This document shows, piece by piece, positions 1,621 through 61,498 of a stretch of 64,000 nucleotides of DNA. This stretch comes from Arenicola marina (Eukaryota > Annelida > Polychaeta > Arenicolidae): positions 1,054,001 through 1,118,000 of the forward strand of contig OZ025264.1 in the NCBI GenBank assembly GCA_964019135.1, read 5' to 3'. The number at the start of each line of letters is the position of its first letter. The stretch's first letter is position 1. Both the position numbers and the translations under genes were made by a program. Under the pieces are notes generated by a model. The model saw only the letters and a program-made list of their open reading frames with translations. It did not search any database and was not told the DNA's origin.

Positions 1621-1883
1621 CAAAAAGGGGCCGGCGCGACAGCTCAGTGGGCTAGAGCGCTCGCATTGAGTGCTCTGGTCACCTGAGAGCCTAACGGCAC
1701 GTGGGTCGGTGGTTCGAGCCCCGCTGTGGCCATGTCTGTGTGGTCGCAGGATAAAGATCCCATGTCTTTCTTCGTAATGAGTAGGGGGTTACCCCCGGGG
1801 ACATGGTTCCACTCTCTCTTCCTTTTCCCATTGACGCGACATGACCAAAAGTGGTTAAAGCGTCCTGAATAACCAACCAACCA
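1621..1883 (+). mobile_element. tRNA-derived SINE
   Basis: A tRNA-like head begins GGGGCCGGCGCGACAGCTCAG. It has an A-box-like AGCTCAGTGGGCTAGAGCG at 1,641-1,659 and a B box GGTTCGAGCC at 1,711-1,720. An unrelated body follows, then an (AACC)n tail. The element sits between exact 10-bp target duplications TCATTCACTG at 1,611-1,620 and 1,884-1,893. The body and tail (1,741-1,882) are the part that was later amplified in the adjoining satellite. Confidence 0.85.
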
Positions 1884-4800
1884 TCATTCACTGTAGCCCA
1901 GTGAACTTGACCCTTCTGACAACAAGCTGATAGGCAGAAGGGTCAAGCAATGCACATGGTTAAAAAAGTAGTAATGCATAACCAAGCTCACTTCGATGAA
2001 TGATTGTCGATTATGACAACGAGCCTACGTTGTGGTCGCAGGATAAAGATCGTATGTCTTCCTTCGTAATGAGTAGGGGGTTACCCCCGGGGACATGGCT
2101 CCACTCTCTCTTCCTTTTCCCATTGACGCGACATGACCAAAAGTGGTTAAAGCGTGCTGAATAACCAACCAACCATCATTCACTGTAGCCCAGTGAACTT
2201 GACCCTTCTGACAACAAGCTGATAGGCAGAAGGGTCAAGCAATACACATGGTTAAAAAAGTCGTAATGCATAACCAAGTTCACTTCGATGAATGATTGTC
2301 GATTATGACAACGAGCCTACGTTGTGGTCGCAGGATAAAGATCCCATGTCTTTCTTCGTAATGAGTAGGGGGTTACCCCCGGGGACATGGCTCCACTCTC
2401 TCTTCCTTTTCCCATTGACGCGACATGACCAAAAGTGGTTAAAGCGTCCTGAATAACCAACCAACCATCATTCACTGTAGCCCAGTGAACTTGACCCTTC
2501 TGACAACAAGCTGATAGGCAGAAGGGTCAAGCAATACACATGGTTAAAAAAGTAGTAATGCATAACCAAGTTCACTTCGATGAATGATTGTCGATTATGA
2601 CAACGCGCCTACGTTGTGGTCGCAGGATAAAGATCCCATGTCTTTCTTCGTAATGAGTAGGGGGTTACCCCCGGGGACATGGCTCCACTCTCTCTTCCTT
2701 TTCCCATTGACGCGACATGACCAAAAGTGGTTAAAGCGTCCTGAATAACCAACCAACCATCATTCACTGTAGCCCAGTGAACTTGACCCTTCTGACAACA
2801 AGCTGATAGGCAGAAGGGTCAAGCAATACACATGGTTAAAAAAGTAGTAATGCATAACCAAGTTCACTTCGATGAATGATTGTCGATTATGACAACGAGC
2901 CTACGTTGTGGTCGCAGGATAAAGATCCCATGTCTTTCTTCGTAATGAGTAGGGGGTTACCCCCGGGGACATGGCTCCCCTGGGTAGCCCAGTGAACTTG
3001 ACCCTTCTGACAACAAGCTGATAGGCAGAAGGGTCAAGCAATACACATGGTTAAAAAAGTAGTAATGCATAACCAAGCTCACTTCGATGAATGATTGTCG
3101 ATTATGACAACGAGCCTACGTTGTGGTCGCAGGATAAAGATCCCATGTCTTTCTTCGTAATGAGTAGGGGGTTACCCCCGGGGACATGGCTCCACTCTCT
3201 CTTCCTTTTCCCATTGACGCGACATGACCAAAAGTGGTTAAAGCGTCCTGAATAACCAACCAACCATCATTCACTGTAGCCCAGTGAACTTGACCCTTCT
3301 GACAACAAGCTGATAGGCAGAAGGGTCAACCAATACACATGGTTAAAAAAGTCGTAATGCATAACCAAGTTCACTTCGATGAATGATTGTCGATTATGAC
3401 AACGAGCCTACGTTGTGGTCGCAGGATAAAGATCCCATGTCTTTCTTCGTAATGAGTAGGGGGTTACCCCCGGGGACATGGCTCCCCTGGGTAGCCCAGT
3501 GAACTTGACCCTTCTGACAACAAGCTGATAGGCAGAAGGGTCAAGCAATATACATGGTTAAAAAAGTAGTAATGCATAACCAAGCTCACTTCGATGAATG
3601 ATTGTCGATTATGACAACGAGCCTACGTTGTGGTCGCAGGATAAAGATCCCATGTCTTTCTTCGTAATGAGTAGGGGGTTACCCCCGGGGACATGGCTCC
3701 ACTCTCTCTTCCTTTTCCCATTGACGCGACATGACCAAAAGTGGTTAAAGCGTCCTGAATAACCAACCAACCATCATTCACTGTAGCCCAGTGAACTTGA
3801 CCCTTCTGACAACAAGCTGATAGGCAGAAGGGTCAAGCAATACACATGGTTAAAAAAGTCGTAATGCATAACCAAGTTCACTTCGATGAATGATTGTCGA
3901 TTATGACAACGAGCCTGCGTTGTGGTCGCAGGATAAAGATCCCATGTCTTTCTTCGTAATGAGTAGGGGGTTACCCCCGGGGACATGGCTCCACTCTCTC
4001 TTCCTTTTCCCATTGACGCGACATGACCAAAAGTGGTTAAAGCGTCCTGAATAACCAACCAACCATCATTCACTGTAGCCCAGTGAACTTGACCCTTCTG
4101 ACAACAAGCTGATAGGCAGAAGGGTCAAGCAATACACATGGTTAAAAAAGTAGTAATGCATAACCAAGCTCACTTCGATGAATGATTGTCGATTATGACA
4201 ACGAGCCTACGTTGTGGTCGCAGGATAAAGATCCCATGTCTTTCTTCGTAATGAGTAGGGGGTTACCCCCGGGGACATGGCTCCCCTGGGTAGCCCAGTG
4301 AACTTGACCCTTCTGACAACAAGCTGATAGGCAGAAGGGTCAAGCAATACACATGGTTAAAAAAGTAGTAATGCATAACCAAGCTCACTTCGATGAATGA
4401 TTGTCGATTATGACAACGAGCCTACGTTGTGGTCGCAGGATAAAGATCCCATGTCTTTCTTCGTAATGAGTAGGGGGTTACCCCCGGGGACATGGCTCCA
4501 CTCTCTCTTCCTTTTCCCATTGACGCGACATGACCAAAAGTGGTTAAAGCGTCCTGAATAACCAACCAACCATCATTCACAGTAGCCCAGTGAACTTGAC
4601 CCTTCTGACAACAAGCTGATAGGCAGAAGGGTCAAGCAATGCACATGGTTAAAAAAGTCGTAATGCATAACCAAGCTCACTTCGATGAATGATTGTCGAT
4701 TATGACAACGAGCCTACGTTGTGGTCGCAGGATAAAGATCCCATGTCTTTCTTCGTAATGAGTAGGGGGTTACCCCCGGGGACATGGCTCCACTCTCTCT

Positions 4801-5516
4801 TCCTTTTCCCATTGAAGCGACATGACCAAAAGTGGTTAAAGCGTCCTGAATAACCAACCAACCATCATTCACTGTGGCCCAGTGAACTTGACCCTTCTGA
4901 CAACAAGCTGATAGGCAGAAGGGTCAAGCAATACACATGGTTAAAAAAGTAGTAATGCATAACCAAGCTCACTTCGATGAATGATTGTCGATTATGACAA
5001 CGAGCCTACGTTGTGGTCGCAGGATAAAGATCCCATGTCTTTCTTCGTAATGAGTAGGGGGTTACCCCCGGGGACATGGCTCCCCTGGGTAGCCCAGTGA
5101 ACTTGACCCTTCTGACAACAAGCTGATAGGCAGAAGGGTCAAGCAATACACATGGTTAAAAAAGTAGTAATGCATAACCAAGCTCACTTCGATGAATGAT
5201 TGTCGATTATGACAACGAGCCTACGTTGTGGTCGCAGGATAAAGATCCCATGTCTTTCTTCGTAATGAGTAGGGGGTTACCCCCGGGGACATGGCTCCAC
5301 TCTCTCTTCCTTTTCCCATTGACGCGACATGACCAAAAGTGGTTAAAGCGTCCTGAATAACCAACCAACCATCATTCACTGTAGCCCAGTGAACTTGACC
5401 CTTCTGACAACAAGCTGATAGGCAGAAGGGTCAAGCAATACACATGGTTAAAAAAGTAGTAATGCATAACCAAGCTCACTTCGATGAATGATTGTCGATT
5501 ATGACAACGAGCCTAC
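1741..5516 (+). repeat. satellite of SINE tail plus transposon end
   Basis: There are fourteen starts of the word GTGGTCGCAGGATAAAG, spaced about 292 bp (long unit) or about 215 bp (short unit). A long unit is 142 bp of SINE 3' body and tail plus about 150 bp of the left terminal repeat of the neighbouring foldback transposon. Short units lack 77 bp spanning the SINE tail and the transposon tip. They occur four times (2,908, 3,416, 4,213 and 5,017), always with the same junction, so mixed long and short blocks were copied together. Units are about 97-99% alike by eye. The open frames at 1,691-1,891 and 3,774-4,073 are shadows. Confidence 0.95.
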
Positions 5517-6252: not shown

Positions 6253-16168
<9,916 letters not shown>

Positions 16169-25330: not shown

Positions 25331-27440
25331 TCAAATCGATATTTCAAAATTTTCGGTCCCGATGTCTCTGGACTCACAGTCCATACTACTCCAGAGCCTT
25401 ATCACACTTGGTAGAAACGAGTTTTAATAAGAAGAAAGTCGCGCCTTAACGGTCGTGACGTTCAAAGGCAGAGCATTACGAAGCGCGTAGTGTGTTCTTT
25501 GTGTTATATTTTGAGGTAAAATATCGCATAAATAACTTGGGGCGTTCCCATAAAACAACTTGTGAAACAGTAACAATTGAAATCTTTTACGTCGAGCACT
25601 CAATGTTTCCCAACCGAGTTCTTGATAGATAAGCGAGTGACTAGTGTGTTTAATCGCCCCGGATACAAGACGACCTGCTCTCAGCTGAACTGCTTCTAGC
25701 CTGTCAGCGTCCGCCTGTGTGCAACCATCCCAAAGGACACATGCATATTCCATAGTGGGACGCACGAAGGTTTTGTACATTAAATCTAGCGTAGCTCGGT
25801 TTAACTTGTAACGCAGTCTGGACAACAAATCGACCCTTCTACTCGCCTTAAGACACATTTCGCTGATATGAGATGACCATGTGAGTTTAGAGATCAAGGT
25901 TACGCCAAGATGTTTATGCTGGTTAGTATTTTGTAAAACTTGGCCTCCCATTTGCAATGGCGGTAAATCCGTTATGGGTTTATTGGATATGGTCATAGAC
26001 TTTGTCTTAGGTGCGCTAAACGTTACAAACCACTGTGAGGCCCAGGACTCCATTTTTTGCAAATCACAGTTTAACATATCAGTTCCATCATCCAATTGGT
26101 CATCATCGTCTACAATGACATATACAGTTGTGTCGTCAGCGAAGAGTCTAATTTTTGACTGTATCCCGGTCGACGATATCGTTAATATAAACTAAGAATA
26201 AAAGAGGACCCAGGACTGATCCCTGTGGAACCCCCGCTTGGATATGACCCAGAGGATACGCTGCGCCATCAATCACCACACTCTGATACATGTCATCGAG
26301 GTAGTTTTTAAACCAGTCCAGCAGTCTACCAGTAATTCCAATACGCTTAAGTTTGTGGATAAGACCAACGTGCCACACACGATCAAATGCCTTTGATAGA
26401 TCGCAGAACACAACACGGACAATTTTGCGTTTGTCTAAAGCCTCACTAAATATATGATATAGATGGACAAGCTGGTTAACCGTGCTGTCGGCTGGTATAA
26501 ACCCAGACTGAAGTCTGGAGAGTATTTCATTGTCACGCAGATAGTTAAACGTATGTTTAAATATAATCCTTTCGAACAGCTTCCCGGTACAGCTTAGTAG
26601 CGAGACCGGCCTATAGTTGTCGACTAGGCTTCTACTACCTTTTTTGAATATGGGGATAACGCTTGCTTGCTTCCACAGACGAGGCATCTTGCAATCCTTC
26701 AGGCATTCCTTAACCAATATCATGAGCGGCTCGCTGATACAAGAGCCGGCTTCGCGGAACATTCGAGGGCTGATCCCATCAGGACCACAGGCTTTCTTTA
26801 TATCTATGCATTTTAGCAGATCAACTACTTCGTCCTGTGTAACAGAGATGTTATTTAAACCCGTGAGCATACAATCACCATCTGTGTCTAGGCTGACGCG
26901 CTCACTTACATCGAGAGTTGAATGGGATAAAAAGTACTTATTAAACATAGATGCTTTAGTGTGAGGATTGGACTCAGCTCGACCATCAGCCTGTAAGACT
27001 GGGTACTCGTAACTATCATTTATGCCAGGCATTTGTTTGGAGATGCGCCACCATTTCTTTGGCGTCACAGAGCTTGATTCGTTCAATACACATTCTAAAT
27101 CATACAAGTAGGTAGCTTTTGCCTCCCTTAAGTTTGTGATATATTCGTTACGCAGTCTTCTGTACTCTGCCCAGTCCGTTTCTCTACTGGACTTCCGTGC
27201 TTTACCATGAAGCCTGTCAAGAGCCCACCTTTTACATCTAAGTTCCTTATTAAAAAATGGTTTATCCTTCGGACGAATAGTAACTACCTTGTTTGGAATG
27301 AAATCTGTACACAAGCTGAGAAACCGTGACGTCCACGCCTCACACATAGTATCTGGGTCCCCGGACAGAAAGCATTCGCTCCAGTCCGTATGTGACAGAG
27401 CTTCACGCAACTGATCAATGTCGGCTTTGTCATTTTATGT
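25331..27440 (-). mobile_element. LINE, CR1/Jockey-like, 5'-truncated
   Basis: The minus strand encodes the reverse transcriptase and C-terminal part of a non-LTR retrotransposon. Successive motifs are KACGPDGISPRMFREAG, ASVIPIFKKGS, DNYRPVSLLS, QSGFIPADSTVNQLVHLYH, VVFCDLSKAFDRVWH, GVPQGSVLGPLLFLVYIND, FADDTTVY and HLGV. The endonuclease half is missing, so the copy is 5'-truncated near 27,440. The stop lies at about 25,421-25,426, and a non-coding 3' tail reaches toward 25,330. No target duplication was found. Confidence 0.9.
25421..27410 (-). pseudogene. LINE reverse transcriptase, frame-broken
   Basis: About 660 residues in two frames. The first (27,410 down to about 26,150) ends inside the RT domain just after YINDIVDRDTVK. 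The second takes up at LFADDTTVYVIVDDD and runs to LSSY-stop. A one-base change in a run of A explains the switch. Otherwise the frame is open, so the copy is fairly recent but not functional. Confidence 0.88.
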
Positions 27441-30211: not shown

Positions 30212-33200
30212 TCCCTCCTTTTCTTGGACAGTTTGTCATCGGCCGTTGGTTGATGTGGCTAATATCTCCAAAGACTAATTAAACAGGCGGCGCATTGATT
30301 TTACTTAGCTTTCCAAAGAATGCCACAAGTTAATAAACATGCTTTGCCTTTAACTTGCGCTTTGCTGAAAAAGAGTGTATTATGTAACAAATGACAAATG
30401 TTCTCAATTTACTCATTATCATGATCTAAACGTTTACTTAAATGTTCACACAGGTTCTTCGCTGGAATGTTCATCAGCTCAGAGTTCGTTCGTGTCAATT
30501 CATGTCAGGACAAAGTTCTCCAGAGTCTTTGGGGGTCTGCGATCCCTCTGCGGGTACCGCGGCTGGGGTGTCACCGGTGCAGGGGCACTCTCCGGAACCG
30601 ATGGGCGCACAGGCGTCGACACACTGCCGGATGATGTCTGGTCTGGGTTGATTTCCTCTCTCTGCTCGGCGTTGTTATCCACAGCTGGTGGGACCGCCTC
30701 CCTTGACGGTTCCAAGTACTGGCGTACGTGGCTGGTGTTTCGCACATACTGCTGTCCAGTAGGTGTCTCGATGGTCACGCTGTTGCCAGCTCTGCTTACA
30801 ACAGTGAGTGGATCTGACCTGAAGGTAGTCGTCAGCTTGTTGGCTTTATCTTGCCTCATCAAGACTTTCTGGCCCACTGCCAGGTCTGATGTGCGAGCAC
30901 CATGCTTTAGATCTGCATATGCCTTGCTCTTGGCCTTTTGTTCGGCGTCACGGTCACGGGTCCCCATGTCAAACTGGCAGCCGATACCGGTTTCTGGGAT
31001 CTTACCCCGGATTTTCCGACCGAACAGCATTTCAGCGGGGCTGCGACCAGTTGTACCATGTGGGATGCTTCGGTACTGGCGTAGATACTTCAGCAGCTCT
31101 CCACGCCAGTCTTTACCCTCTGCCTGGGCAATTTGCAGTCGTTTCAGGAGTGACGAATTCTGTCTCTCCACCTCTCCATTGGCCTGAGCCCACCTTGGTG
31201 TCACTGGGGTGTGTCTTATCCCTTCCTTCTTGCACCATTCATTGAACTCGGCTTTGAATTGTGGTCCATTGTCGGATTTCACTGTCACAGGCAGACCATG
31301 ACGGCTAAACATTTCATCCAGACAGCCAGTTATCTTTTCTGTTTTAGTCGATCCCAGGACTTCCACCTCGTAGAAGCGGCTGTAGTAATCCACTGCTACA
31401 AGCAGTGAGTGGCCTGATGGTAGTGGACCCATCAAGTCCACAGCGATGTCTACCTATGGGCCCTCTGGGATGGGGGTTGACACCATGGGCTCTGGCGGCT
31501 CAGGCCTAGCTACCAGCTGGCAGCCGTGACAGGTGTGACAAAATCTGTCCACCTCCCTGTCTACTCCTGGCCACCACACTTTACTTCGCAGGTTCTGCTT
31601 CATGCCTACAATGCCCAGGTGACCCTCATGGGCCAGCCCTAGTGTGCGGGCTCGTAGGCTGGCTGGCATCACTATGCGGGTGCCTCTCAAGAGGAGGTGT
31701 CCAATCGCACACAGTTCACCTGCTGCTGGGGCATACATTTTACAGCTGTCAAAGCGGCCCGTTGTGAGTGCCTGCCTTACTTCGGTCAGTTCTGCATCTC
31801 CTTCTGAGGCCTCCTCGATCTCTCGGGTCGTAAGTGCATTTGGGGTAGCATGCACTGCGACAAATCTGACGTAATCATCCTCGTTGCGTCCACCTGAGGC
31901 AGGTTCGGCTGTAACCAGTCTCGAGAGAGGGTCCGCCACGTTGTCTCTCCCAGGGATATGTACAACCCTGAAGTCATAGGGTTGAAGTCGCAGTACCCAG
32001 CGTTCGATTCTAGCACAAGGCTTGGATCGCGGGCTGTAGATGGCCTGCAGCGGTTTATGGTCGGTAACCAAGTCAAATTTCCTGCCGTAGATGTAGACAT
32101 GGAATCTTTCGCATGCCCACACCAGAGACAGGGCCTCCTTCTCTGTTTGGGAGTATCTCCTTTCGCAGTCGGTCAGGCTCCTGCTTGCGTAGCATACAGG
32201 CACAAACTCACTGTTGACTTCCTGCACCAGCACAGCTCCAATCCCACGAGGTCCCGCATCTGCAATCACCTTTGTCGGTGCATCTTTGTCAAAGTAGGCC
32301 AGTGTCACTGCCTCTGCCATCCTTTGCTTTAACACCTCAAATGATTTGCTTTGCTCAGGTCCAAAGTGGAATTTTGCATCCTTCCTGAGCAGTCTGCGGA
32401 GTGGCTCCACAATTGTAGCAAATTGTGGAATGAAGCGAGCACTGTAGTTGGCCAGACCAAGAAAGCTACGGACTTCAGAGACGTTTTCTGGCTCACGAGC
32501 CTCTACGATCGCTTTCACTCTGGCTTCTGTTGGGCCTATACCCTTCTCCGACAGCATCATACCCATGAAGATCAGCCTGCTCATGTTGAATTGGCACTTG
32601 GCTGCGTTGAGGGTCAGACCACTGTCCTGTAGGCGCTTCAGGACTGCATGCAGCGCTCTGTCATGCATATCCTGGTTGTTTCCGTGCACGATTATATCGT
32701 CAGATATGTTCTCTGCACCTTCTATCCCGGCCAAGGATGAACAAAAGGCCAAGACACTTGAAACCTCATGCTGGTATTGTTCACTGGCTGAGCTCACCCC
32801 AAATAGCAAGCGTTTGTAGCGATACAATCCCGCATGTGTTGCGAACGTGGTGATATCCCTGGATTCAGGTGAGAGTTCCAACTGGTGATAGCCCCACTTC
32901 AGATCGAGTTTGCTGAAGACAGTGGACCCGTTCATGTCCTGCAGTACTTCATCCACCGTTGGGATGGGGTGGCGGCCACGAATAATAGCCTCGTTGGCAC
33001 GCCTCATGTCGATGCAGAGTCTGATTTCACCTTGGCCTTTCGGCACGATGACCACTGGATTCACCCAGGGGGTGGGTCCATCCACAGGCTCCACGATATC
33101 CTGGTCCTGGAGCTCCCGTAGCTTAGCCTCCACCTTGCCTCGCAGGTTGAATGGGGTACGCCTCAATGGCTGGGCTACCGGCGTGACGTCTTCATTGATG

Positions 33201-34222
33201 TGAAGCTTTATTTGTTTATCCTTCAGCTTCCCAACCCCTTCGAACACTTTGGGGTACTGCTGTTGCAGGCCTTTCCCTGCTTCATGGACTGCAGCGACGT
33301 CATATCCAATTTTCAGGACTCCCAGGTCCATTGCGGTCTGTTTGCCTAGCAGTGGTACACCCCTACCTTCTATCACCCGGAACTCTGCCTTCACACTGCG
33401 CGTTCTCACCTGGACTTCGCAGACAAATGTTCCTTTTACTTTTAAGGGTACCAAAGTGGCGTAGGGACTCAACTGGTTGCCTCCTTTCTTTGATGTACAC
33501 TGTATGTTCTGGCATTTGAGGTATTCCCAGGTATCTTCATCAACAATATTGCTGTTGGCCCCGGAATCGATGAGTATCTGTAGGCTCACCCCACCTACAG
33601 TGATTACCATCATTGCATCCCCTTCCTTGGAGTCTCCAACAGCAAATGCATAATCTGTGTTGGCCCCGTCAGAGCTCACGCTATTCACATTATAGCTTTT
33701 ACGGGACTTCGTCTTACATACTTTCATGAAGTGATTCTTCCCGCCGCATTTCTTACATGTTTTTCCTGTAGCCGGACATGTCGGATCCTTCCCGAAATGA
33801 GCTTTACCCCCACATCGGTAGCAGGTCACCTCCTTTGTGGATTTCCAGTCCCTGGTGTCATGGCCCCTGTCACTGCCACCCCTTCGTCCTTGACTTGGGC
33901 GGTGGTATTTATCACTGGGTTTGGGCCCGGACACCCGGTTCACGTTGACAGTGTTGGAAAGTGTCAATCCACTGAGCAAACCCATCTGAGCATCCACTTT
34001 CTCAGTCTGCTCTGCCAGCTCTAGAGCACGGGTCAGAGTGAGGTCAACACCCTGCTCTAGCAGCTTTCGGCGAATGTTGTCAGATGCACATTTGTAGATA
34101 AGTTCGTCTCTGATCTGATTATCCAGTTCGGCACCATAGCCACAATCCTTGCCTGCTTGCCTCAAGCGAGTGAAAAACTGCTGTACAGTCTCCCCCTCCT
34201 TCTGCTTTAGCTGACGGAGCTC

Positions 34223-34951
34223 TTGACGCAAGTGCCCCCAGGCAAGCCCGCTTCTCTAGGGGCACAACGGTAACAATGCTAAAAACCTTCGACGTTAGTA
34301 GGGAATCGACTGTAGCTTTTATTATAATGTGTGCTCGAACAATCATAGTGTTTTCGTATTCTATATACCGTGTTCTATCATCTGACATCAATAAAGTGTA
34401 TCGACACTAGGTTGTTTCGGTTATATTTTCGCGAAGAAATGTTGGAGCACACAACTGTTCCCGACCAGCCGTCCGCCATATTTGTTTTTGGCGGATGCCG
34501 GTACCTGTGAATGCGACTTGGTTCCTCCTTTCCGTTAGCATATGACTCTCCGCCAGAGGGCCTTGTCAGTCGCTCACTTTGAACTTAAGGACAACAGCAG
34601 CGCCCTCTTTCACAGGTCATTGACTGTTACAAAGTTTTGGACCCAGGCTACAAATCGTTTAAATGATGGCGGGATTCGCCAGGTGGCGCTGCATACGCAT
34701 GGCCGTTGGTAGGGAAAAGTCGTATGCTCCAACATTTGTTCGCGAAAATATGACTGCAACTATATCGTGTTGACACACTTTCTTGATGTCAGAAGATAGA
34801 ACAAGGTATATAGAATACGTAAGCACTATTATTGTACGCGCCAACATTATGATAAAAGCTACAGCCGATTCCCTACTAACGTCGAAAGATTTTAACATTG
34901 TTACCGTTGTGCCCCTAGAGAAGCGGGCTTGCCTGGGGGCACTTGCGCCAA
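34223..34951 (-). mobile_element. MULE-like DNA transposon nested in the retrotransposon
   Basis: A 729-bp element with long terminal inverted repeats of about 165 bp, starting TTG(G/A)CGCAAGTGCCCCC. It is flanked by an exact 9-bp target duplication GAGCTCCGT (34,214-34,222 and 34,952-34,960 as ACGGAGCTC). A 9-bp duplication with long inverted ends is typical of Mutator-like and some Merlin elements. It has no coding capacity. A related single end lies at about 59,140-59,324. Confidence 0.85.
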
Positions 34952-35338
34952 ACGGAGCTCGTGTCTGGCTTGTGCCACATTGACCTTCGGCACAAAGTAA
35001 GTGTTCAGGGCCTCCACAGCTTTCGTGTATTCTGTCGCATCACCGGTGTCCGGCAGCGTCAGAAAGATGTCTTGAACATCCGTCCCTGCGTAGTGCAACA
35101 ACAGGGCTCTTCTCCTTTGCTTGGTGGTGTTCGTAGTCCCCTCCGCGACTATCAGTCCTTTGCCGTCAGCAAACAGTTCAAACGACAGTAGCCACCGCTT
35201 CCAGCGGGTACCAAGCGTGGCGGGTTGTGAAAAACAGTCAAATTTTGGGAGTGGTCCTTTCTCACCATCCATCTTCAGCTCGTCCGCAATATCACGCAGA
35301 TTCACAGACTGGACTTCGATTTTAATCCTCGTCGCCAA

Positions 35339-35505
35339 TGTTATATCTATTATTCCGGATTAAACCTAGATTCGTCGGATTAAACCACGACAACAGTTTT
35401 GTACTTTCTTGCTTTCTTTTATTAAACCGGAAACCGCAAGTCGTTCTCCCTTGAGGTTGTATAAACGGTGTGGGCTATAACATATCCGGACTTACAAACA
35501 CGACA
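35339..35505 (-). repeat. 5' LTR of the right Ty3/gypsy element
   Basis: 167 bp, about 99% identical to the copy at 30,045. The tRNA-Ser primer-binding site follows after one base. Confidence 0.9.
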
Positions 35506-41900: not shown

Positions 41901-44900
41901 TTTCACGCAAGGTGTTGTTTGTCTGAGATGTCCCCTTCATGGAGAAATTGGGGAGGTCATTTTCCCGCCAAAATGCTCCCGTAGGGTCCCATGTTAAACT
42001 TTGGGAATTTTTAGCGGGAAAACTATGCGTAATAGGTAAAATGTGAAGGCGGTTTTCAAATCCAAGTCGACGTTTGCCCGTCGTTTGCAACTAATCCCGA
42101 CTCTCTAGCGTCGCTATTAAGCGAACGGCGGCCATCGCAACCCCGAAAGAGTGCCGGTCCATATCGCCGTTGACTCATAATGGGAGCGTCGGCATGGAGG
42201 GGGGTGCACCTTTTGTGAGCGCTCTAGCGGCCAAACTAAGCGTCCTAGAGCATTTCTGAGGTGGTTTTCATAAGTCTAGCTCACATTTCTCTCTCCATTC
42301 ATGCCAAATCTGGGCTCCCTATCTCAAATATTAACCGAGTTATGGCCTTGCAAAGTTTAAAACGCCACTTGACACGTACGCTGAATATAGATTGGCCGAT
42401 TACTCGAAAATCGTTCAGTATCCGGAAACATTTGAGCCAGTCATGCGTGTCCGCCTCTCTCCGCAGAATACTCTCCAACAAACAACGAATCTCTAGACGC
42501 GATATTAACGAAGTTACGAGGGGAACACATGTTTCGTGTCCTTGACCTTGCTGCGACCTTGACCTTGGAAGCGTGACCTTGACCAATATAGTTATTCGTG
42601 CCCAATTACTAATGTCATGTATCACGCCAGGTGACGTTTGTCTCACTTGTGCCCTTCACGGAGAAATTGAGACCACTTTCCCGCCAAAATGCTGCCGTAG
42701 GATCCCATGTTAAACTTTGGGAATTTTTAGCGAGAAAACTATTCGGGCGATTTTTACAATTTTGAGACGATGTATAACGTACCTATGGGCCTAATAACAG
42801 AAATAATGGTGAGCGTCATTAGATGAAAACTAAGACAGTAGTAGTGATTTTTCCGATTTTTGGTCCTATCTTTCAATGGTTAAGCGAAATGTGAAAAATT
42901 CCTGTGACCTTGACCTTTGACCTAGATTGCCCATCTACAAACTTGGTCTGACGGTAGGCCGTGGCATTATCTATGCAGAAGGAAAAGTCGATATCTCAAA
43001 CTTTGTAAAAAAAAAAAAAAAATCCAAAGTTGTCAATTTTCAAGAGCCCGTGGCGCGAAAACTTTATGGCGCGAAAACTTTATTATTATTATAACAATAT
43101 TAAGAGAGCTAGTGCGGAAAATGTGTTTTGGACGTATGACGTCATCGTGACGTTGACCTTTGAGTTATATTGCCCATCTACGAACTTGACCTGTCGATTG
43201 GCTGCCGGAATGTTTTGGTAAAAGAAGAGAACGTTATCTTTAGTCATTCGACAGATAATGCTCCGACAGACAGACAGACAGACACACACACAGACAAACC
43301 GAACACACCGACATAAGACGAAAATCGTAGATTTTCGTCTTAATGATTGGGGAGACTGACCTGGACACAGTCGGCGGCCGCCTTGTTAGCCATGTCGGCG
43401 GCGAAGCCCTTGGCGATGGACGCTCGGTAGGTGTTAGACCGTCCGTTGTCGGTTTCCCACGCCGAGCACAACGTCATCAGCCGGGAGAGCTCCACGTTCA
43501 TGGCCATCTCCGCCAGCATGAAGGACACGGCTTGGTGCTGTGGAAAAGAGAATGGCAGTGGGGGATATAGGTAACATGTACTCAGCTGGGAGGGAGGAGG
43601 TGGTGGAGTGGGGGTGGGAGGGAGGAGGGGGAGAGGTAGGGAGGAGTGGGAGAGGGAGGGGGTGGAGTGGGAGAGGGGTCTCGAGGGAGGGAGTAGGGGA
43701 CGAGGGAGAGGGAGGGGGTGGAGTGGAAGAGGGAGGGAGGAGTGGGAGAGGGAGGGGGTGGAGTGGGAGAGGGGTCTCGAGGGAGGGAGTAGGGGAAGTG
43801 GGAGAGGGAGGGGGTGGAGGGGGAGAGGGAGGGAGGAGTGGGAGAGGGAGGGGGTGGAGTGGGATAGGGAGGGAAGAGTGGGAGAGGGAGGGGGTGGAGT
43901 GGGAGAGGGGTCTCGAGGGAGGGAGTAGGGGAAGTGGGAGAGGGAGGGGGTGGAGGGGGAGAGGGAGGGAGGAGTGGGAGAGGGAGGGGGTGGAGTGGGA
44001 TAGGGAGGGAAGAGTGGGAGAGGGAGGGGGTGGAGTGGGAGAGGGGTCTCGAGGGAGGGAGTAGGGGAAGTGGGAGAGGGAGGGGGTGGAGGGGGAGAGG
44101 GAGGGAGGAGTGGGAGAGGGAGGGGGTGGAGTGGGAGAGGGGTCTCGAGGGAGGGAGAAGTGGGAGAGGGAGGGGGTGGAGTGGGAGAGGGAGGGGGTGG
44201 AGTGGGAGAGGGAGGGGGTGGAGGGGGAGAGGGAGGGAGGAGTGGGAGAGGGAGGGGGTGGAGTGGGAGAGGGGTCTCGAGGGAGGGAGAAGTGGGAGAG
44301 GGAGGGGGTGGAGTGGGAGAGGGAGGGGGTGGAGTGGGAGAGGGAGGGGGTGGAGTGGGAGAGGGAGGGGGTGGAGTGGGAGAGGGAGGGAGGAGTGGGA
44401 GAGGGCTAACGAGGGAGGGAGTAGGGGAAGTGGGAGAGGGAGGGGGTGGAGTGGGAGAGGGATCTCGAGGGAGGGAGTAGGGGAAGTGGGATAGGGAGGG
44501 GGTGGAGTGGAAGAGGGAGGGAGGAGTGGGAGAGGGAGGGGGTGGAGTGAGAGAGGGATCTCGAGGGAGGGATTAGGGGAAGTGGGAGAGGGAGGCGGTG
44601 GAGGGGGAGAGGGAGGAAGACGTGGGAGAGGGAGGGGGTGGAGTGGAAGAGGGAGGGGGTGGAGTGGAAGAGGGAGGGGGTGGAGTGGGAGAGGGAGGGA
44701 GGAGTGGGAGAGGGCTAACGAGGGAGGGAGTAGGGGAAGTGGGAGAGGGAGCGGTTGGAGTGGGAGAGGGATCTCGAGGGAGGGAGTAGGGGAAGTGGGA
44801 GAGGGAGGGGGTGGAGGGGGAGAGGGAGGAAGACGTGGGAGAGGGAGGGGGTGGAGTGGAAGAGGGAGGGGGTGGAGTGGGAGAGGGAGGGAGGAGTGGG

Positions 44901-47900
44901 AGAGGGCTAACGAGGGAGGGAGTAGGGGAAGTGGGAGAGGGAGCGGTTGGAGTGGGAGAGGGATCTCGAGGGAGGGAGTAGGGGAAGTGGGAGAGGGAGG
45001 GGGTGGAGTGGGAGAGGGAGGGAGGAGTGGGAGAGGGAGGGGTTGGAGTGGGAGAGGGGTCTCGAGGGAGGGAGTAGGGGAAGTGGGAGAGGGAGGGGGT
45101 GGAGTGGGAGAGGGAGGGAGGAGTGGGAGAGGGAGGGGTTGGAGTGGGAGAGGGGTCTCGAGGGAGGGAGTAGGGGAAGTGGGAGAGGGAGGGGGTGGAG
45201 GGGGAGAGGGAGAGAGGAGTGGGAGAGGGAGGGTGTGGAGTGGAAGAGGGAGGGAGGAGTGGGAGAAGGAGGGGGTGGAGTGGGAGAGGGGTCTCGAGGG
45301 AGGGAGTAGGGGAAGTGGGAGAGGGAGGGGGTGGAGGGGGAGAGGAAGGGAGGAGTGGGAGAGGGAGGGGGTGGAATGGAAGAGGGAGGGAGGAGTGGGA
45401 GAGGGAGGGGGTGGAGTGGGAGAGGGGTCTCGAGGGAGGGAGTAGGGGAAGTGGGAGAGGGAGGGGGTGGAGGGGGAGAGGGAGGGAGGAGTGGGAGGGG
45501 GTGGAGTGGGATAGGGAGGGAGGAGTGAGAGAGGGAAGAGGTGGAGTGGGAGAGGGGTCTCGAGGGAGGGAGTAAGGGAAGTGGGAGAGGGAGGGGGTGG
45601 AGGGGGAGAGGAAGGGAGGAGTGGGAGAGGGAGGGGGTGGAGTGGGAGAGGGGTCTCGAGGGAGGGAGGGGGTGGAGCGGGAGAGGGGTCTCGAGGGAGG
45701 GAGTAGGGGAAGTGGGAGAGGGAGGGGTTGGAGGGGGAGAGGGAGGGAGGAGTGGGAGAGGGAGGGGGTGGAGTGGAAAAGGGAGGGGGTGGAGTAGGAG
45801 AGGGAGGGTGGAGTGGGAGAGGGATCTCGAGGGAGGGAGTAGGGGAAGTGGGAGAGGAAGGGGGTGGAGGGGGAGGGAGGAGTGGGAGAGGGAGCTCGAA
45901 GGAGGGAGTAGGGAACGTGGGAGAGGGGGGAGGTGGAGTGAAGGAAGAGGAGGGAGGAAGGGAGGGAGGAGGTGAACTGGGAAAGGCAGGGGGAGGATGG
46001 AGCAGGAGTGGGAGAGGGAGGGGGGAATGGGAGAGGGAAGGAGGAGGGGGAGAGGGTGGAAGCAGGTGGAGATGTGGGAGTGGGACTGGGATAGAGGAGG
46101 GGGAGAGGGAGGGAGGAGGGTGTGTGGGAAGGGGCGCGGAGAGTGAGAGAAGCAGAGGGGGATGGGGGCTTACCTGAGCAATGGAAACGCCGAACGTCTT
46201 CCTCTCCATTGCGTACTTGGTCGCCTCGTCCAGCGCCCTCTGTGCCAGGCCAACAGCACCTGCTGCCACCTACAGGCAGTAAGTGAAACTCTGCAGTCAT
46301 AAGGAAAGCGATAGCCATCGGCGTCACTATCTCCCTTTATCCAACATGTTACTTTCCCTTTACAGGTCGTACCAATTTCAATTAAATTATTCTTACATAC
46401 CGTTATCACTTTTATGTTTCCTTGCAGGTGATATTAATATTCGTGGATGGAATGTGGCCCTGCATGAAACCATGCACACTGTCGGTGTCCTTGTCACTGT
46501 ATCCATGTTGCTATCACTGCTGTGTCATTCTTAATGTGCCACTGTCAGTGGCATTATACTCCATTATCACTGTGAAATTTCCATATTGTCATACAGTAAT
46601 TATTACTGTATAATTTTCATATTGTCATAATCCAATTATCACACTAATTTTCATATTGTCATAATCCAATTATCACAGTAATTTTCATATTGTCATATAC
46701 TTATTATCACTGTATTTTCATATTGTAATTATCTCTGTGCAATGTTCATATTGTCATACTCTAATTATCACTTTGTAATTTCCGTATTGTCATATTGTAA
46801 TTATCACTTTGTAATTTCCGTATTGTCATACTCTAATTATCACTTTGTAATTGTCGACTTTGTCAGCGAGCAATGTACTTACGGCAGGTCGCGTTTTGTC
46901 AAAGCAACCCATGGCAATCTTGAAGCCCATGCCTTCTGCACCCAGAACGTTCTGCAAACGAGAGATACCAGCTAAAGATAAATCCCGTAAGGCATGATAG
47001 ACGAGATGATGACTGTGAGCATAGCATACAACAACTTGGTCTGTATTTCCAATGTCAAGCGATTATTTTGTTGGACATAAGTAAATTAGGCAACAACAGG
47101 AAGTTGTATAAAGGTATACATTTCATAATGGTTTAGATAATAGTTTCAATATTACTGTAATACGGCATTGAGAAAACAGAAAACTAAAGAAGACAATCAC
47201 GTCTTTGTCATAACCAAATGTTAAAGTGTAAATCTCACAATTTATCTGTAACATCTTAAAAGCTAGACTGTCAAGTAACAATCTCGATGTTCAACGACGA
47301 GCATTTCAATCGGAAAATACGTGTCTCTACCTCTATGGACACGACGAACGTTTAACCTGAGAACGCGTGCCTCTACCTCTTTGGGGACGACGACATCCTC
47401 GAATGTGATCCCTCTCGTGTCGCTGGCTCTCTGACCGATCATGATCTCCTGCAGAGGGAGCCACAATACATTATACATGCCGACTACCAAGATGTGTAAA
47501 CGTGAATGCATGAATTGTTATCTCACGCCACCTAGTGTGCACAAGGGCTGAGGCGGACCAAGGAACCTGCTCAGATACGAGACAATCATCAGATTTTTTT
47601 TAAGGAGACTTCAACTGATTAAAGAGTTCTAGTAGCGAGGGACAAGCAGCCAAACTGACATGATATGTACAAGTAATTTTCCTCCAAGCAGGACTCTAAC
47701 GACAATCAGCAGTAGGCATTTATTACATTCCTGCCGGACGTAACGGCAATGACGTCACGGGGTGTCGACATGACGTCATGCGGTGTCGACAGGACGCCAC
47801 GTGATATACTTTCCTGCCAGTGGTCACGCCGGGGTTTTTCGCCATGACGTCACGTGACCTACCTTTCTGTCGAGGGTGTCGCCATAACGTCACGTGACCT

Positions 47901-50900
47901 ACCTTCCTGTCGGGAGTGTCGCCATGACGTCACGTGACATGCCTTCCTGTCGAAGGTTACGCCGGGGGTGTCGCCATGCCGTCACGTGACCTACCTTCCT
48001 GCTGGGGGTCACGCCGGGGGTGTCGCCATGACGTCACGTGACCTACCTTCCTGCCGGGGGTCACGCCGGGGGTGTCGCCATGACATCACGTGACCTACCT
48101 TCCTGCCGGGGGTCAAGCCGGGGGTGTCGCCATGACGTCACGTGACCTACCTTCCTGCCGGGGGTCACGCCGGGGGTGTCGCCATGACGTCACGTGACCT
48201 ACCTTCCTGCCGGGGTCACGCCGGGGGTGTCGCTATGACGTCACGTGACCTACCTTCCTGCCGGGGGTCACGCCAGGGGTGTCGGCGTCGACGATGAACC
48301 CGGTGAAGGCCATCCCGGCGGGCGCCTTGGGGTCAGCCTCGGTCCTCGCCAACACGAAGTACCAGTTGGCCACCCCGCCGTTGGTGATCCATATCTTCTG
48401 GCCGTTGAGGACGTAGCTGTCTCCTTTCTTCTCGGCCCTGGTCCTCAGGCCGGCCACGTCCGAGCCAGCCCCAGGCTCCGTCACACAGTACGCCTAGGAC
48501 ACCAAGCAGATAACATGAGAAACCTGAGGGAAGATGCTGATCACGTTCAACTAGATATGGGTTAGTTTAAATATTTTTTGCCGTAAATACCTGCATGAAA
48601 GCTTTTGGGCGTAATGAATAAAAAATCCCAAAATTTGATTCCAGAAAATACGGTAATTACATGTTCCCAGTGTCACTTTTAACAGTAAAAGTGACCGCGA
48701 CAAATTGACACCGCAGAAATGAGGCTTTACAAGTGTTGTGCCAGAGCCTCGGATACCTCGCTACTTAAGCGTGCGGCGATGTCTTCTGCCTTTAACTCAA
48801 TGACTCACGCAGTACAGCGGCTCCTCAACCAGCCGACCCAAATATTTCTTCTTTTGCTCTTCATTTCCTGCTAGAATCACCGGCATTTCCTGGTGGAAGA
48901 CAAGAAAGGATCATAATGCAATTATAACTATTCCATCAGGTTACATATATATCTCTTAGGCTGTCGTCACTAGAAATATCTAAACTTCATATGAACTAAT
49001 TTGTACCTTAAAGTGTCAATATCTTTGATAACGTTATTTATTGGTCACCAAGCGTGATATGATATGCGAAATTATCCCACATTCGCTCAAAGTCGATCCG
49101 TGCGGTCAAACCTATCATATCTTTAAACGGCCAGACCTAGACTACGGTAGAACCGCCGATGCGTGTTCATGCGGTGTGCAGTTGCAGGCACCGAGAGGCC
49201 GGCCGCGCGAGTACCGTAGAACCGCCAGCGCGTTTTCATGCGGTGTGCATGCGCAGGCCCCATTGGCCTATTTCACTTACATAGTTTAGTCGGCTACCGG
49301 GCTTAGTCGGATCGCCCATTATTTACATGGTGACTTTAGACGACTAAACCCCGACTAAGCCGCTATACTGGGTTCGTGAATCCGCCACTGGACGCCGTTG
49401 TGGCCGTTTATAGAGCGCACTGGCGGTTCCCGGGCCCTGCAAGCCGTTACGCATTACAACGCACCGCGTCCAGTAAAAAACATGTAACAAATGTCACAAG
49501 CCGCTCAATCAGAGTAAAGTTCGAGGAGGTTCAATCCAAATAGGGCGAGAACCTAAACGTTCAAAAAAGAATGGAAATAATGTAAAGAGAACAAAATGCG
49601 TCTACCAGATTATGCAAACTATACGATACACCGTGCAAGGACAAAAATGATGTGGCAGTTCCGGGAGTACTTACACCCACAACGTTTCCCAGTATAGCGA
49701 CCATGATACCGGTGCAGGCATACCCCAGCTCCTCGTCAACCAGGACAGAAGTCAGCATGGACATCTCGACGCCGCCTGAACGAAAGGGCACGCAATCAAG
49801 AAGTCGAGACAGGATCAAGCATAGCTTGAGAAGGAGAACGAAAATCGGGCTTACGGGATTGCCCGTTGTATGCCGTGTTTAGTGCTGACACCAGTCCTTC
49901 AGATATGCCTTCATGAAACCACCAACAAATTGCTATACTTCACCATTATTGCAAGTTGCTTAGCGAAGAGAAATAGAAAGATCTACGTTGAACATGTTAC
50001 GGCCGATCGGGATGGTCTACATGCAATGTCGACCAAGTTATAGGCCGAAACGTCACCGCGCTGTCAGCCAGTTTGCGTCTTCAACCTTTTAATGGGATTG
50101 GTCATGTTAAAGTGTGATTATTGTTTTGCGTCTAAACTGCTGGTTCGATTTCGATGCTATTTGACACTCATGATATAACTAACATTGGAACATATACTCC
50201 ACCACGTATGGATCACCTGCCCGCTTTAACATTGTCACCGCGATTGTTCACAATTTTAAGGACACTAAAACTTGATTGGCCGATTACTCGAAAAACTTTA
50301 GGGTATGCGGTAAAATCTGAGCAAATAACGCGTTTCTGTCTCTCTCTGAAGATTACTGAAGAAACAATGGGTCTGACATTGGCGATGTTAAAATTGGATT
50401 ATTTTTTGGCGTCCAAATTACGGGTTCGATTTCGATGCCATTTGGCACGCATGATGCCACTAACATTGGTACATATTCCACCACATATGCGTATCCAGAT
50501 AATTGAGCCACCACTGCTTTTCAGCGGGTTTGGGGATTTCTGAAACAGTAGCCTCCACGTGCGACACGCCACTTTGGCGTAGTGGATAAGGCTTTCGACT
50601 TTGGGTAAGAAGGTTGGGTGTTCAAACCCAGCTGGGTGCTTATTTTTTTATCGTTTTCATACTGGAAACACATTTCGGTTGATATAAAAGAGATGTTGGG
50701 CCCGCGGGAGTCACTTTTTGAATATAGAATTGCAAAGGGCTAGCGACAACATTGGGGTATAGGCCGAAACGTCCTCTCGATCTTGCCCTGGTACTAGTTC
50801 AACAAATTAAAGTTGCGTACTGAGCTGTTCTATGGTGACAGAGTTCTATGATGTCCGGGGATAGACATGTTTGCCATATCACAGCCCAAACGGCGATTTT

Positions 50901-59324: not shown

Positions 59325-60579
59325 GGACCAGCTCCAAACGACCACCATGCGCAATGTCCCTGGTGGTGGTTTTGATGTCAGAGCTAGGACCAGCCACGAC
59401 TCATTTGAGTCGCATTTTGTGGCTAGATCAAAATGATCACGGCAAATTCGCGGAAAATATGGGCCGAAACGGCATTTATGACATTGACTTTACACATAAA
59501 AACAGGTCAAGACTTATAAATATATCTACCTTTTTATATTGTCAAACCTAGTCTATACACCCGTTTCCAGATATATAGCCTATCTAGACTGAACGAATGC
59601 TTGTACTGGGCTATGCTTGGTCTGATAGGCCTAGACTATTAGATTTTCTTGATTTCAGAAAATATAGTTTCTTCTTTCTCATCTTACTTTTGAAGGGATT
59701 TCTTTTTTTAAGAAACTTTCTTAAGGGATTTTCTTTTTTAAAGAAACTTTCTTATCAAAGAAAATAGTTTCTGTGCAATTTCTTGGCCACAGGAAAATAT
59801 TTTCTGATTGTCTCAAGCTTAGTTGTGTCACTCCCTAGAAAAAAGAGTTCTTGTTTTAAGAAACAAATTTTCTTACTTACGCCACCCTTATCTATCGAGC
59901 ATAATTGTTCGATTATTTAAATATTTCAACGGCTTACATATTATTGGGAGGGTCGATAAATGTGAAACAATGTTCAATTTAGTTTTGAAGGTGGCGACGC
60001 GAAAGGACAATTCTGACCAATCAATATCGCTTTGGATTAATCCGAGCACTTACCAAAGTTTAAGCCAGCAGAGGGCGCGCCATCAGCGATTGTTGATCTG
60101 TGTCTGATTGGTCCCCGGCTGACCAATCGGCTGCAGCCACGCAGGTACTACACAAACACATAACATATTACTATTATGCATAAAGATAGCAGACTATAAT
60201 ATATAATATACTACATAATATAGATAGTAGATAGCAGTGTACTCTTATTAGGGAATAGAAATCGATGTCACAAAGGACATCAGAGTCAGAAGGAAGTCTG
60301 TCACACGGTTGCATGATGACACGCCCCAGTAGATGGACCGCAACGGCTTTCCGCACTGTGTGAACGGAGCCAAGGGGAAGCCAGGGTGCGCGGGGGGGGG
60401 GGGGGGGGCAAGGGGAAGCCAAGCCAAGGAGGAGCAAAGGGTGGAGGTGGGGGAAGTCGAATAGGGTTCGGATCACGATCTATACGTCACTATGACGACG
60501 GAGGCCCGAAGGCCAAACAGAGTTATGTAAAGGTATAAAGTACTTCCAGTGTCTAAGCCATGCAACCAGAGTGAGGGTG
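59325..60579. other. no gene seen
   Basis: AT-rich foldback-like repeats lie up to about 59,890, then unremarkable sequence with a G run at about 60,390-60,410. No domain-bearing frame. Confidence 0.45.
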
Positions 60580-61275
60580 GCGCTGTGGGACAGCGGTGTC
60601 GGGTGTGAATCGGCCGGAGGGTGGCGCTGTAGGACAGCGGTGTCGGGTGTGAATCGGCCGGAGGGTGGCGCTGTGGGACAGCGGTGTCGGGTGTGAATCG
60701 GCCGGAGGGTGGCGCTGTGGGACAGCGGTGTCGGGTGTGACTCGGCCGGAGGGTGGCGCTGTGGGACGGCGGTGTCGGGTGCGACTCGGCCGGAGGGTGG
60801 CGCTGTGGGACAGCGGTGTCGGGTGTGACTCGGCCGGAGGGTGGCGCTGTGGGACAGCGGGGCCGGGTGTGACTCGGCCGGAGGGTGGCGCTGTAGGACA
60901 GCGGTGTCGGGTGTCACTCGGTCGAAGGGTGGCGCTGTGGGACAGCGGTGTCGGGTGTGACTCGGCTGGAGGATGGCGCTGTGGGACAGCGGTGTCGGGT
61001 GTCACTCTGCCGGAGGGTGGCGCAGTGGGACAGCGGTGTCGGGTGTGACTCGGCCAGAGGGTGGCGCTGTGGGACAGCAGTGTCGGGTATGACTCGGCCG
61101 GAAGGTGGCGCTGTGGACAGCGGTGTCGGTTGTGACTCGGCCAGAGGGTGGCGCTGTAGGACAGCGGTGTCGGGTGTGAATCGGCCGGAGGGTGGCGCTG
61201 TAGGACAGCAGTGTCGGGTATGATTCGGCCGGAGGGTGGCGCTGTGGGACAGCGGTGTCGGGTGTGACTCGGCCG
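60580..61275. repeat. 44-bp minisatellite, about 16 copies
   Basis: The unit runs GTGGCGCTGTGGGACAGCGG, TGTCGGGTGTGACTCGGCCG, GAGG. Copies differ at one to three positions, with one variant of 43 bp. Each unit carries GAGGGTGGCGCTG, which resembles the core of a CTCF site. The long frames rich in HPTPLSHSATL are shadows that jump frame each unit. Confidence 0.95.
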
Positions 61276-61498
61276 GTACAACTAGGTAGGCCGAAGTCAT
61301 GGCGCCGAAACCAACGAGAGCCGAACTCAACGTAATTCTTTGATAGAGTTTACGTTGGAGATTCTTCAAGAAAAGGGTAATGTAAACCTTCGACACGTTG
61401 AGAATAAACAAACGCGCTCAGTGTCAAGCCACTGAAGTCAAGAGTAGGTAGACCCGTGTCAAGTTAGGGTCAAGTTATGTACGTCGATCGTAACTTAC

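Follow-up and report, generated by a model that had tools for sequence, protein, structure and literature searches.

Minisatellites that extend across exon/intron boundaries, called mirages, have been described in cephalochordates, in Adh3, the globin genes BflGb6 and BflGb9, the troponin C gene and PGBD5 (PMC3087553, PMC3902484). As far as the accessible parts of these reports go, the amphioxus arrays start inside an exon and repeat one of its splice sites (donor or acceptor) in units of 10-160 bp, many of which, though not all, keep the AG/GT signals; reverse transcription PCR (RT-PCR) suggests that splicing is undisturbed (PMC3087553), and array length has been seen to change and to differ between haplotypes (PMC3087553, PMC3902484). 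The same literature cites the idea of Rogers that introns can be gained by duplication of AGGT proto-splice sites (as cited in PMC3087553). For annelids, we found no description of a mirage-like donor array among the open-access papers listed in our searches, with subscription papers mostly outside them; the nearest case is the earthworm metallothionein gene, which contains minisatellites and has duplicated copies of exon 4 that are absent from transcripts (PMC12783039, in the part of the text available). Here we describe a tandem array of splice donors at exon C of two medium-chain acyl-CoA dehydrogenase (MCAD) genes in a 64,000-nucleotide window of an annelid genome (the window is the whole stretch analysed, contig C19:1054001-1118000; the genome has 867 Mb in 762 contigs).

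The two MCAD genes face each other. Exons B-H of the left gene lie between 7482 and 15741 on the + strand, and exons B-F and H of the right gene run from 48889 down to 36345 on the - strand; exon G of the right gene was missed by the exon pattern and is visible as an open frame. The joined exons of the left gene matched solved MCAD chains (E 9.4e-139, 269 residues aligned) and also the Pfam acyl-CoA dehydrogenase domains, and every located MCAD exon has a length divisible by 3. The 3' end of exon C encodes the same 18 protein letters in both genes. The array unit is a 52-bp segment, repeated in tandem, in which the final 30 bases of exon C are followed by about 22 bases from the donor and intron start (GTAGGTCACGTGACGTCATGGC). 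Tandem Repeats Finder (TRF) reported 7.2 copies of 52 bp (94% matches, 47911-48284) and 3.0 copies of 40 bp (47839-47957) in the right gene, and 5.3 copies of 52 bp (81% matches, 8086-8346) in the left gene. Cut in mRNA sense, the right array comprises ten units (52, 51, 52, 52, 52, 52, 52, 40, 40 and 53 bp) and a 21-bp fragment, and the left array six (52, 52, 40, 52, 51 and 59 bp), the sixth of which is degenerate; the 40-bp form is without 12 bp corresponding to one of two similar 12-mers of the exon end. Unit 1 is the authentic exon C/intron boundary, as in a mirage-type array. The first unit is coding and can be aligned with solved MCAD proteins, so the copying went from exon to intron.

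A preliminary description of this DNA had proposed that the end of exon C with its donor seeded a 52-bp repeat, with about nine good copies in the right gene and about six in the left, and both statements are borne out by the unit tables. The span that it gave, 47755-48253, is right for the intronic part, but the array proper takes in the last 30 exon bases. Its statement that every unit offers a donor was too broad: most units do carry a near-identical 5' splice site, but AAG/GTAGGT is intact in only 8/10 right and 5/6 left units. Similarly, the 14-mer GTCACGTGACGTCA, which combines an E-box with a cyclic AMP response element (CRE), was said to occur in many units; this applies to the right gene (6/10, leaving out the 21-bp fragment) but not to the left gene (1/6).

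The same description had suggested that use of alternative donors would add a repeated peptide to the enzyme. We joined exon C through each alternative GTAGGT to exon D in four genes, one for each class of MCAD copy defined below. All alternatives in the window genes led to a premature stop (5/5 in the left gene and 7/7 in the right gene), and 52 is not a multiple of 3; the suggestion therefore fails for these two genes, in which the frame does not stay open as it would in an in-frame extension of the exon. The stop in the right gene comes 6 codons past the junction and arises from a base found in no other unit of the right array than unit 1. Open alternatives exist in just one of the four genes, the outer one at C19:854 kb, where 4/12 are stop-free within exons C and D and 2 of these stay in frame.

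An exon C query found ten MCAD copies on contig C19 between 854 and 1296 kb, arranged as one outer gene and three triplets in the order (+,-,-), along with six weaker matches on other contigs (37-51% identity). When two units of array DNA were used as the query (the first look gave 10 candidates, all of which were scored), all 34 matches fell inside the ten MCAD copies (C19:853-1296 kb), so that capture of a pre-existing repeat by the exon end is unsupported. The copies form four classes, with identities of 97.7-99.9% within a class and about 80-92% between classes over the 0.6-3.2 kb that can be aligned. Units were tabulated for one gene of each class, and the other six sequences were read by eye. 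Copy number differs between the paralogue classes, again as in a mirage-type array: there are 6 units in class A (the + gene of each triplet), 10 in class B (the first - gene), 1 in class C (the second - gene) and 13-14 in class D (the outer gene, with 13 units counted and a fourteenth incomplete). Within each class of recent copies the unit number is equal, as read. In class C, exon C can still be joined to exon D in frame, and the single unit is accompanied by an 11-bp remnant (GACACCCCGGC); because this remnant resembles the start of a second unit, class C probably once had more units. Most simply, the array would have originated in MCAD before the classes split and been almost completely lost in class C, though gene conversion among the MCAD copies may have played a part.

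By its structure the exon C array is of the mirage type, and we do not claim a shared origin with the cephalochordate arrays. A cephalochordate host is ruled out by the mitochondrial gene order. On the 15,942-bp mitochondrial contig, COX1 and the remaining protein genes share one strand, and the gene order is ND4L-ND4-16S-ND1-ND3-ND2-COX1-COX2-ATP8-COX3-ND6-CYTB-ATP6-ND5 (protein names other than COX1 were assigned by eye from the frames). This order shows all four derived annelid features listed in the portion of PMC2639372 that was available, and the main non-coding gap lies between ATP6 and ND5, as that source gives for Clitellata, Maldanidae and Terebellidae. Besides the phylum, the annelid arrays differ from what the accessible amphioxus reports describe in that arrays of up to 36 units were seen in full, that tandem donors span 5-6 kb, and that some units carry a CRE-like word abundant in the host genome; moreover, the annelid arrays are described here from DNA sequence and the amphioxus arrays also from RT-PCR. 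The earthworm metallothionein minisatellites, in contrast, lie within intron 1 and have monomers that average about 180 bp, and repeated donors are not described in the available part of that report. As in the proposal of Rogers, to the extent that it is cited, a stretch with a splice site has been duplicated, but here an existing intron was enlarged at its 5' end and no new intron was seen.

Several other exons of this genome show the same process as the MCAD array. We screened for three identical donor words at 29-59-bp steps and compared the counts with those of the reversed pattern, the counts being places, many of which can fall in one array. The word CAGGTGAGT gave 2,860 places against 928 (about 3-fold), and CAGGTAAGT gave 3,697 against 447 (about 8-fold). 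The first 100 places of each list resolved into nine arrays, all on contig C1. In six of them the 5' edge was reached, and in all six the first donor closes an apparent coding exon; the remaining three (L064/L070, L066 and L067), in which the edge was not reached, are left out of this count. A search with Mito_carr, which carries no motif bias, showed one exon at 91-bp steps that accounts for 18 of the 141 matches listed; this locus has 19 copies of 91 bp, 98% alike, each with 81 bp of exon and a GTGAGT donor. Other places were chosen through the E-box/CRE motif. They include an array at a SCYL2-like exon (54 bp x 36.5, starting from the exon end) and an acceptor-side array, L010 (58 bp x 13.4), that ends against a hydrophobic exon unnamed by Pfam; L009 and L010, having been chosen in this way, are biased evidence, and two further motif places, L011 and L012, contain short arrays. 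From our reading of the exons we call the hosts ALDH1-like, rapsyn-like, SCYL2-like and, for the 91-bp carrier exon, SCaMC-like. The periods of the donor arrays (52, 47, 91, 54, 53, 34, 50, 39, 44 and 46 bp) are multiples of 3 in 2/10 cases. The repeat of the ALDH1-like array is open in frame, with 13 codons.

We put at roughly 85% the probability that the exon C array is a near-neutral intronic minisatellite that arose by tandem duplication across the exon C/intron junction of an annelid MCAD gene. A segment made of the exon end, the donor and the intron start would have been duplicated in tandem, and the copy number would then have risen and fallen by slippage or unequal exchange, the 52- and 40-bp units differing by the internal 12-bp repeat. 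Copies downstream of the authentic donor would be tolerated, since they would be removed with the intron while the 5'-most donor is used, and exon sequence could in this way be multiplied with no change in the protein. The E-box/CRE words would be intron-start sequence carried along in the copying. At the acceptor side a mirror rule would apply, and the L010 array, ending against its exon, would fit it. The data show the anatomy of the arrays, the direction of copying, the confinement of the array DNA to MCAD copies as searched, the differences in copy number and the arrays of other genes; that the first donor is used exclusively, the recombination mechanism and the near neutrality are what we infer.

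Several observations weigh against this interpretation. It assumes that only the first donor is used, yet most of the copied donors are identical to it in sequence. Predicted pairing gave a mean unpaired probability of 0.26-0.40 for the first donor and 0.34-0.74 for the copies, so that the first donor is predicted to be less open than most copies and folding would give it no reason to win; the idea that RNA structure hides the downstream donors is thus unsupported by the predicted pairing. When 26 non-first units (one gene per class, 32 columns) were compared, the donor hexamer was the best-kept segment, with a mismatch rate per site of 0.038 against 0.065 for all 32 columns, which neutrality does not demand, though the units are few and related. 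The exon C array is not highly unstable, since the unit number looks the same within each class. The genome-wide picture also has its weaknesses: large arrays weigh heavily in the tandem-donor counts and the reversed words occur in tandem as well, no exon at short steps was seen among the listed matches to Pkinase (122), ABC (20) and SSF (64), and 16 exon loci taken with no motif bias (L023-L028 and L042-L051) showed 0 arrays across a donor and 3 within 150 bp of the domain match. The arrays in L043 and L048 lie past an apparent stop codon and that in L050 ends about 29 bp before an acceptor, and none of the three crosses a donor.

The preliminary description considered an intronic enhancer plausible, in which a repeated CLEAR-type (coordinated lysosomal expression and regulation) E-box, GTCACGTGAC, overlapping the CRE word TGACGTCA would be bound by TFEB/MITF and CREB proteins, so that a beta-oxidation gene responds to fasting. 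The words are indeed there and the host gene is MCAD: exact GTCACGTGAC occurs 8 times in the right array, twice in the left array and nowhere else in the window, TGACGTCA occurs 7 and 2 times, respectively, at a density far above the genome average, and unit 1 carries the full 14-mer in classes A, B and C, and in class D it has the E-box but not the CRE. However, the 14-mer makes up 14 of the 52 unit bases and multiplies with the unit, so that the high local density of binding words follows from tandem repetition, and the CRE word is abundant throughout the genome, with 166,947 occurrences against 14,904 for the reversed word, an 11-fold excess; the window has 8 more copies beyond those in the arrays. 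The 14-mer itself occurs 1,626 times against 7 for its reversed word, and the first 8 places listed are all copies of one dispersed repeat family. One of these (L001) and the seven others are 77-96% alike in their best pieces of 0.4-2.1 kb; the best piece spans the 14-mer in 5/7 cases, while L003 and L007 have it next to the 14-mer, the flanks of which look alike by eye. This dispersed repeat explains part of the TGACGTCA excess, and TGACGTCA is also found in arrays at L044 (514-660) and L048 (1097-1390), loci that were fetched regardless of the word.

In the unit comparison described above, the mismatch rates of CACGTG (0.051) and TGACGTCA (0.053) were slightly lower than the rate for all 32 columns but no lower than that of the donor hexamer or of the flanking TGGC (0.048), and the exonic part had a rate of 0.092. 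E-box and CRE are each intact in 18/26 non-first units, and the commonest loss of the E-box is a C to T change at its CpG (6/26). There is thus no clear preferential conservation, with the full 14-mer kept in 1/6 left units, and class C does with a single unit. Furthermore, the array of an unrelated gene, the SCYL2-like one, contains 16 copies of the reverse complement of the 14-mer, and the donor arrays of other genes with periods of 91, 53, 50 and 39 bp are without the motif, which also leads us to reject the motif as the driver of array birth. The exact words that made an enhancer plausible are present, but there is no clear mark of selection on them. Binding would still be compatible with these data; we nevertheless regard an enhancer as the reason for the array as very unlikely.

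A role of the copied donors themselves deserves no more credence. If the downstream copies acted as decoys that compete for the U1 small nuclear ribonucleoprotein (snRNP), or as poison donors that yield degraded stop-containing transcripts, array length would set the output of the enzyme. GTAGGT is intact in 22/26 non-first units and 12/12 alternatives in the window genes give a premature stop, as this explanation would have it; on the other hand, array length is not conserved across the classes, class C has no copy at all, and 4/12 alternatives in the outer gene are open instead of poison. The published view for amphioxus, in the part of the report available, is that the arrays do not interfere with splicing (PMC3087553). 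An artefact of assembly, in which gene copies or repeat units would have been falsely duplicated, is the kind of error that three similar triplets on one contig with 97.7-99.9% identity within classes might raise; it is extremely improbable given that the classes differ by about 8-20% where they can be aligned, and also in unit number and order, that the spacings of the triplets differ, and that like arrays occur in other genes on contigs C1 and C2. A bolder extension of the minisatellite interpretation can also be envisaged. U1 snRNP protects transcripts, and exon 3' ends might be a preferred birthplace of minisatellites through a donor-linked mechanism, with hundreds or more introns (a number guessed from two donor words) opening with donor arrays that would serve as docking strips for U1 snRNP and would protect transcripts or aid splicing while the 5'-most site is used; we consider this a long shot.

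How the spliceosome chooses among equal 5' splice sites is a question for which arrays of near-identical strong donors provide a natural test, and the ten MCAD copies, which range from 1 to 14 units at one exon, form a ready series for it. The open ALDH1-like array (L065) is a good site for the question of repeated-peptide isoforms. With mirage-type arrays in a second animal phylum, and signs that they are common there, what was an oddity of a few genes in amphioxus would become a wider route by which introns grow; donor arrays would also be a hazard for automatic gene annotation. The features discussed here are listed in Table 1.

Table 1. Exon C, its donor arrays and neighbouring features of the window, followed by donor arrays at other exons of the genome.
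Feature	Position	Strand	Size or repeat unit	Basis or remark
Exon C, left MCAD gene	7876..8115	+	240 bp	alignment to solved MCAD chains
Left array	8086..8391	+		starts 30 bp inside exon C; TRF and unit table
Exon D, left gene	8743..8814	+
Second donor-seeded array at exon D donor, left gene	8813..8935	+	47 bp x 2.6	TRF
36-bp array, left gene	9259..9486	+	36 bp	TRF; begins 30 bp past exon E donor (9229)
36-bp array, right gene	46556..46852	-	36 bp	TRF
Exon D donor duplication, right gene	47313..47379	-	about 2 copies	borders approximate, by eye
Right array	47767..48283	-		TRF and unit table
First (authentic) donor GTAGGT, exon C, right gene	48248..48253	-		sole stop-free C-to-D join among 8 GTAGGT in the intron
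Exonic half of unit 1, right gene	48254-48283	-	30 bp	last 30 bp of exon C
Exon C, right MCAD gene	48254..48493	-	240 bp	phase 0; open frame, AG/GT borders
Acidic exon			53 bp, span 5.25 kb	acceptor and open frame
Lustrin-like cysteine-rich exon			34 bp	Pfam match under the cut-off; unit and exon share only about 4 bases
HDAC6 exon			50 bp	E 1.5e-10
ALDH1-like exon ...AGWCDKIQ, L065	C1:605400-606250		39 bp, span about 6.3 kb	open frame throughout the 851 bp read
Hydrophobic exon			44 bp	acceptor and open frame
Rapsyn-like exon			46 bp

Other repeats accompany the exon C array. In both window genes the donor of exon D opens a second, smaller array. The 36-bp array of the left gene lies near the exon E donor, which is not itself inside the array, and a CT-rich array that starts at about 14490 (by eye) similarly lies near the donor at 14478 and does not include it. 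A GA-rich array of 2.3 kb (CT-rich in mRNA sense, 43587-45894) makes up most of intron F of the right gene, and its counterpart in the left gene has about 0.3 kb (14515-14824). Intron E of the left gene contains a retroelement at 9615-14204, whose frames at 9812-13920 are gag/pol-like and whose flanks are 199-bp direct repeats, 99.0% alike; this insertion accounts for the 5.2-kb length of the intron, which in the right gene measures 0.6 kb.

Elsewhere in the window, retroelement-like frames were seen on the - strand at 30500-35359 and 25424-27434, one integrase/polymerase-like and one LINE-like (long interspersed element) by eye. Interleaved 292-bp and 215-bp tandem repeats, 98-100% alike, occupy 1739-5298, and a 44 bp x 16 array with 92% identity lies at 60573-61276, with several frames open. 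In the remainder of the assembly, kinase frames with in-frame TAG/TAA on contigs C232, C330, C443, C465, C497, C504, C609, C652 and C684 look as if they came from a ciliate associated with the worm. On contig C3, single-frame kinase genes of some 300 residues occur by the dozen at about 14-57 Mb, and most of them lie at 23-57 Mb.

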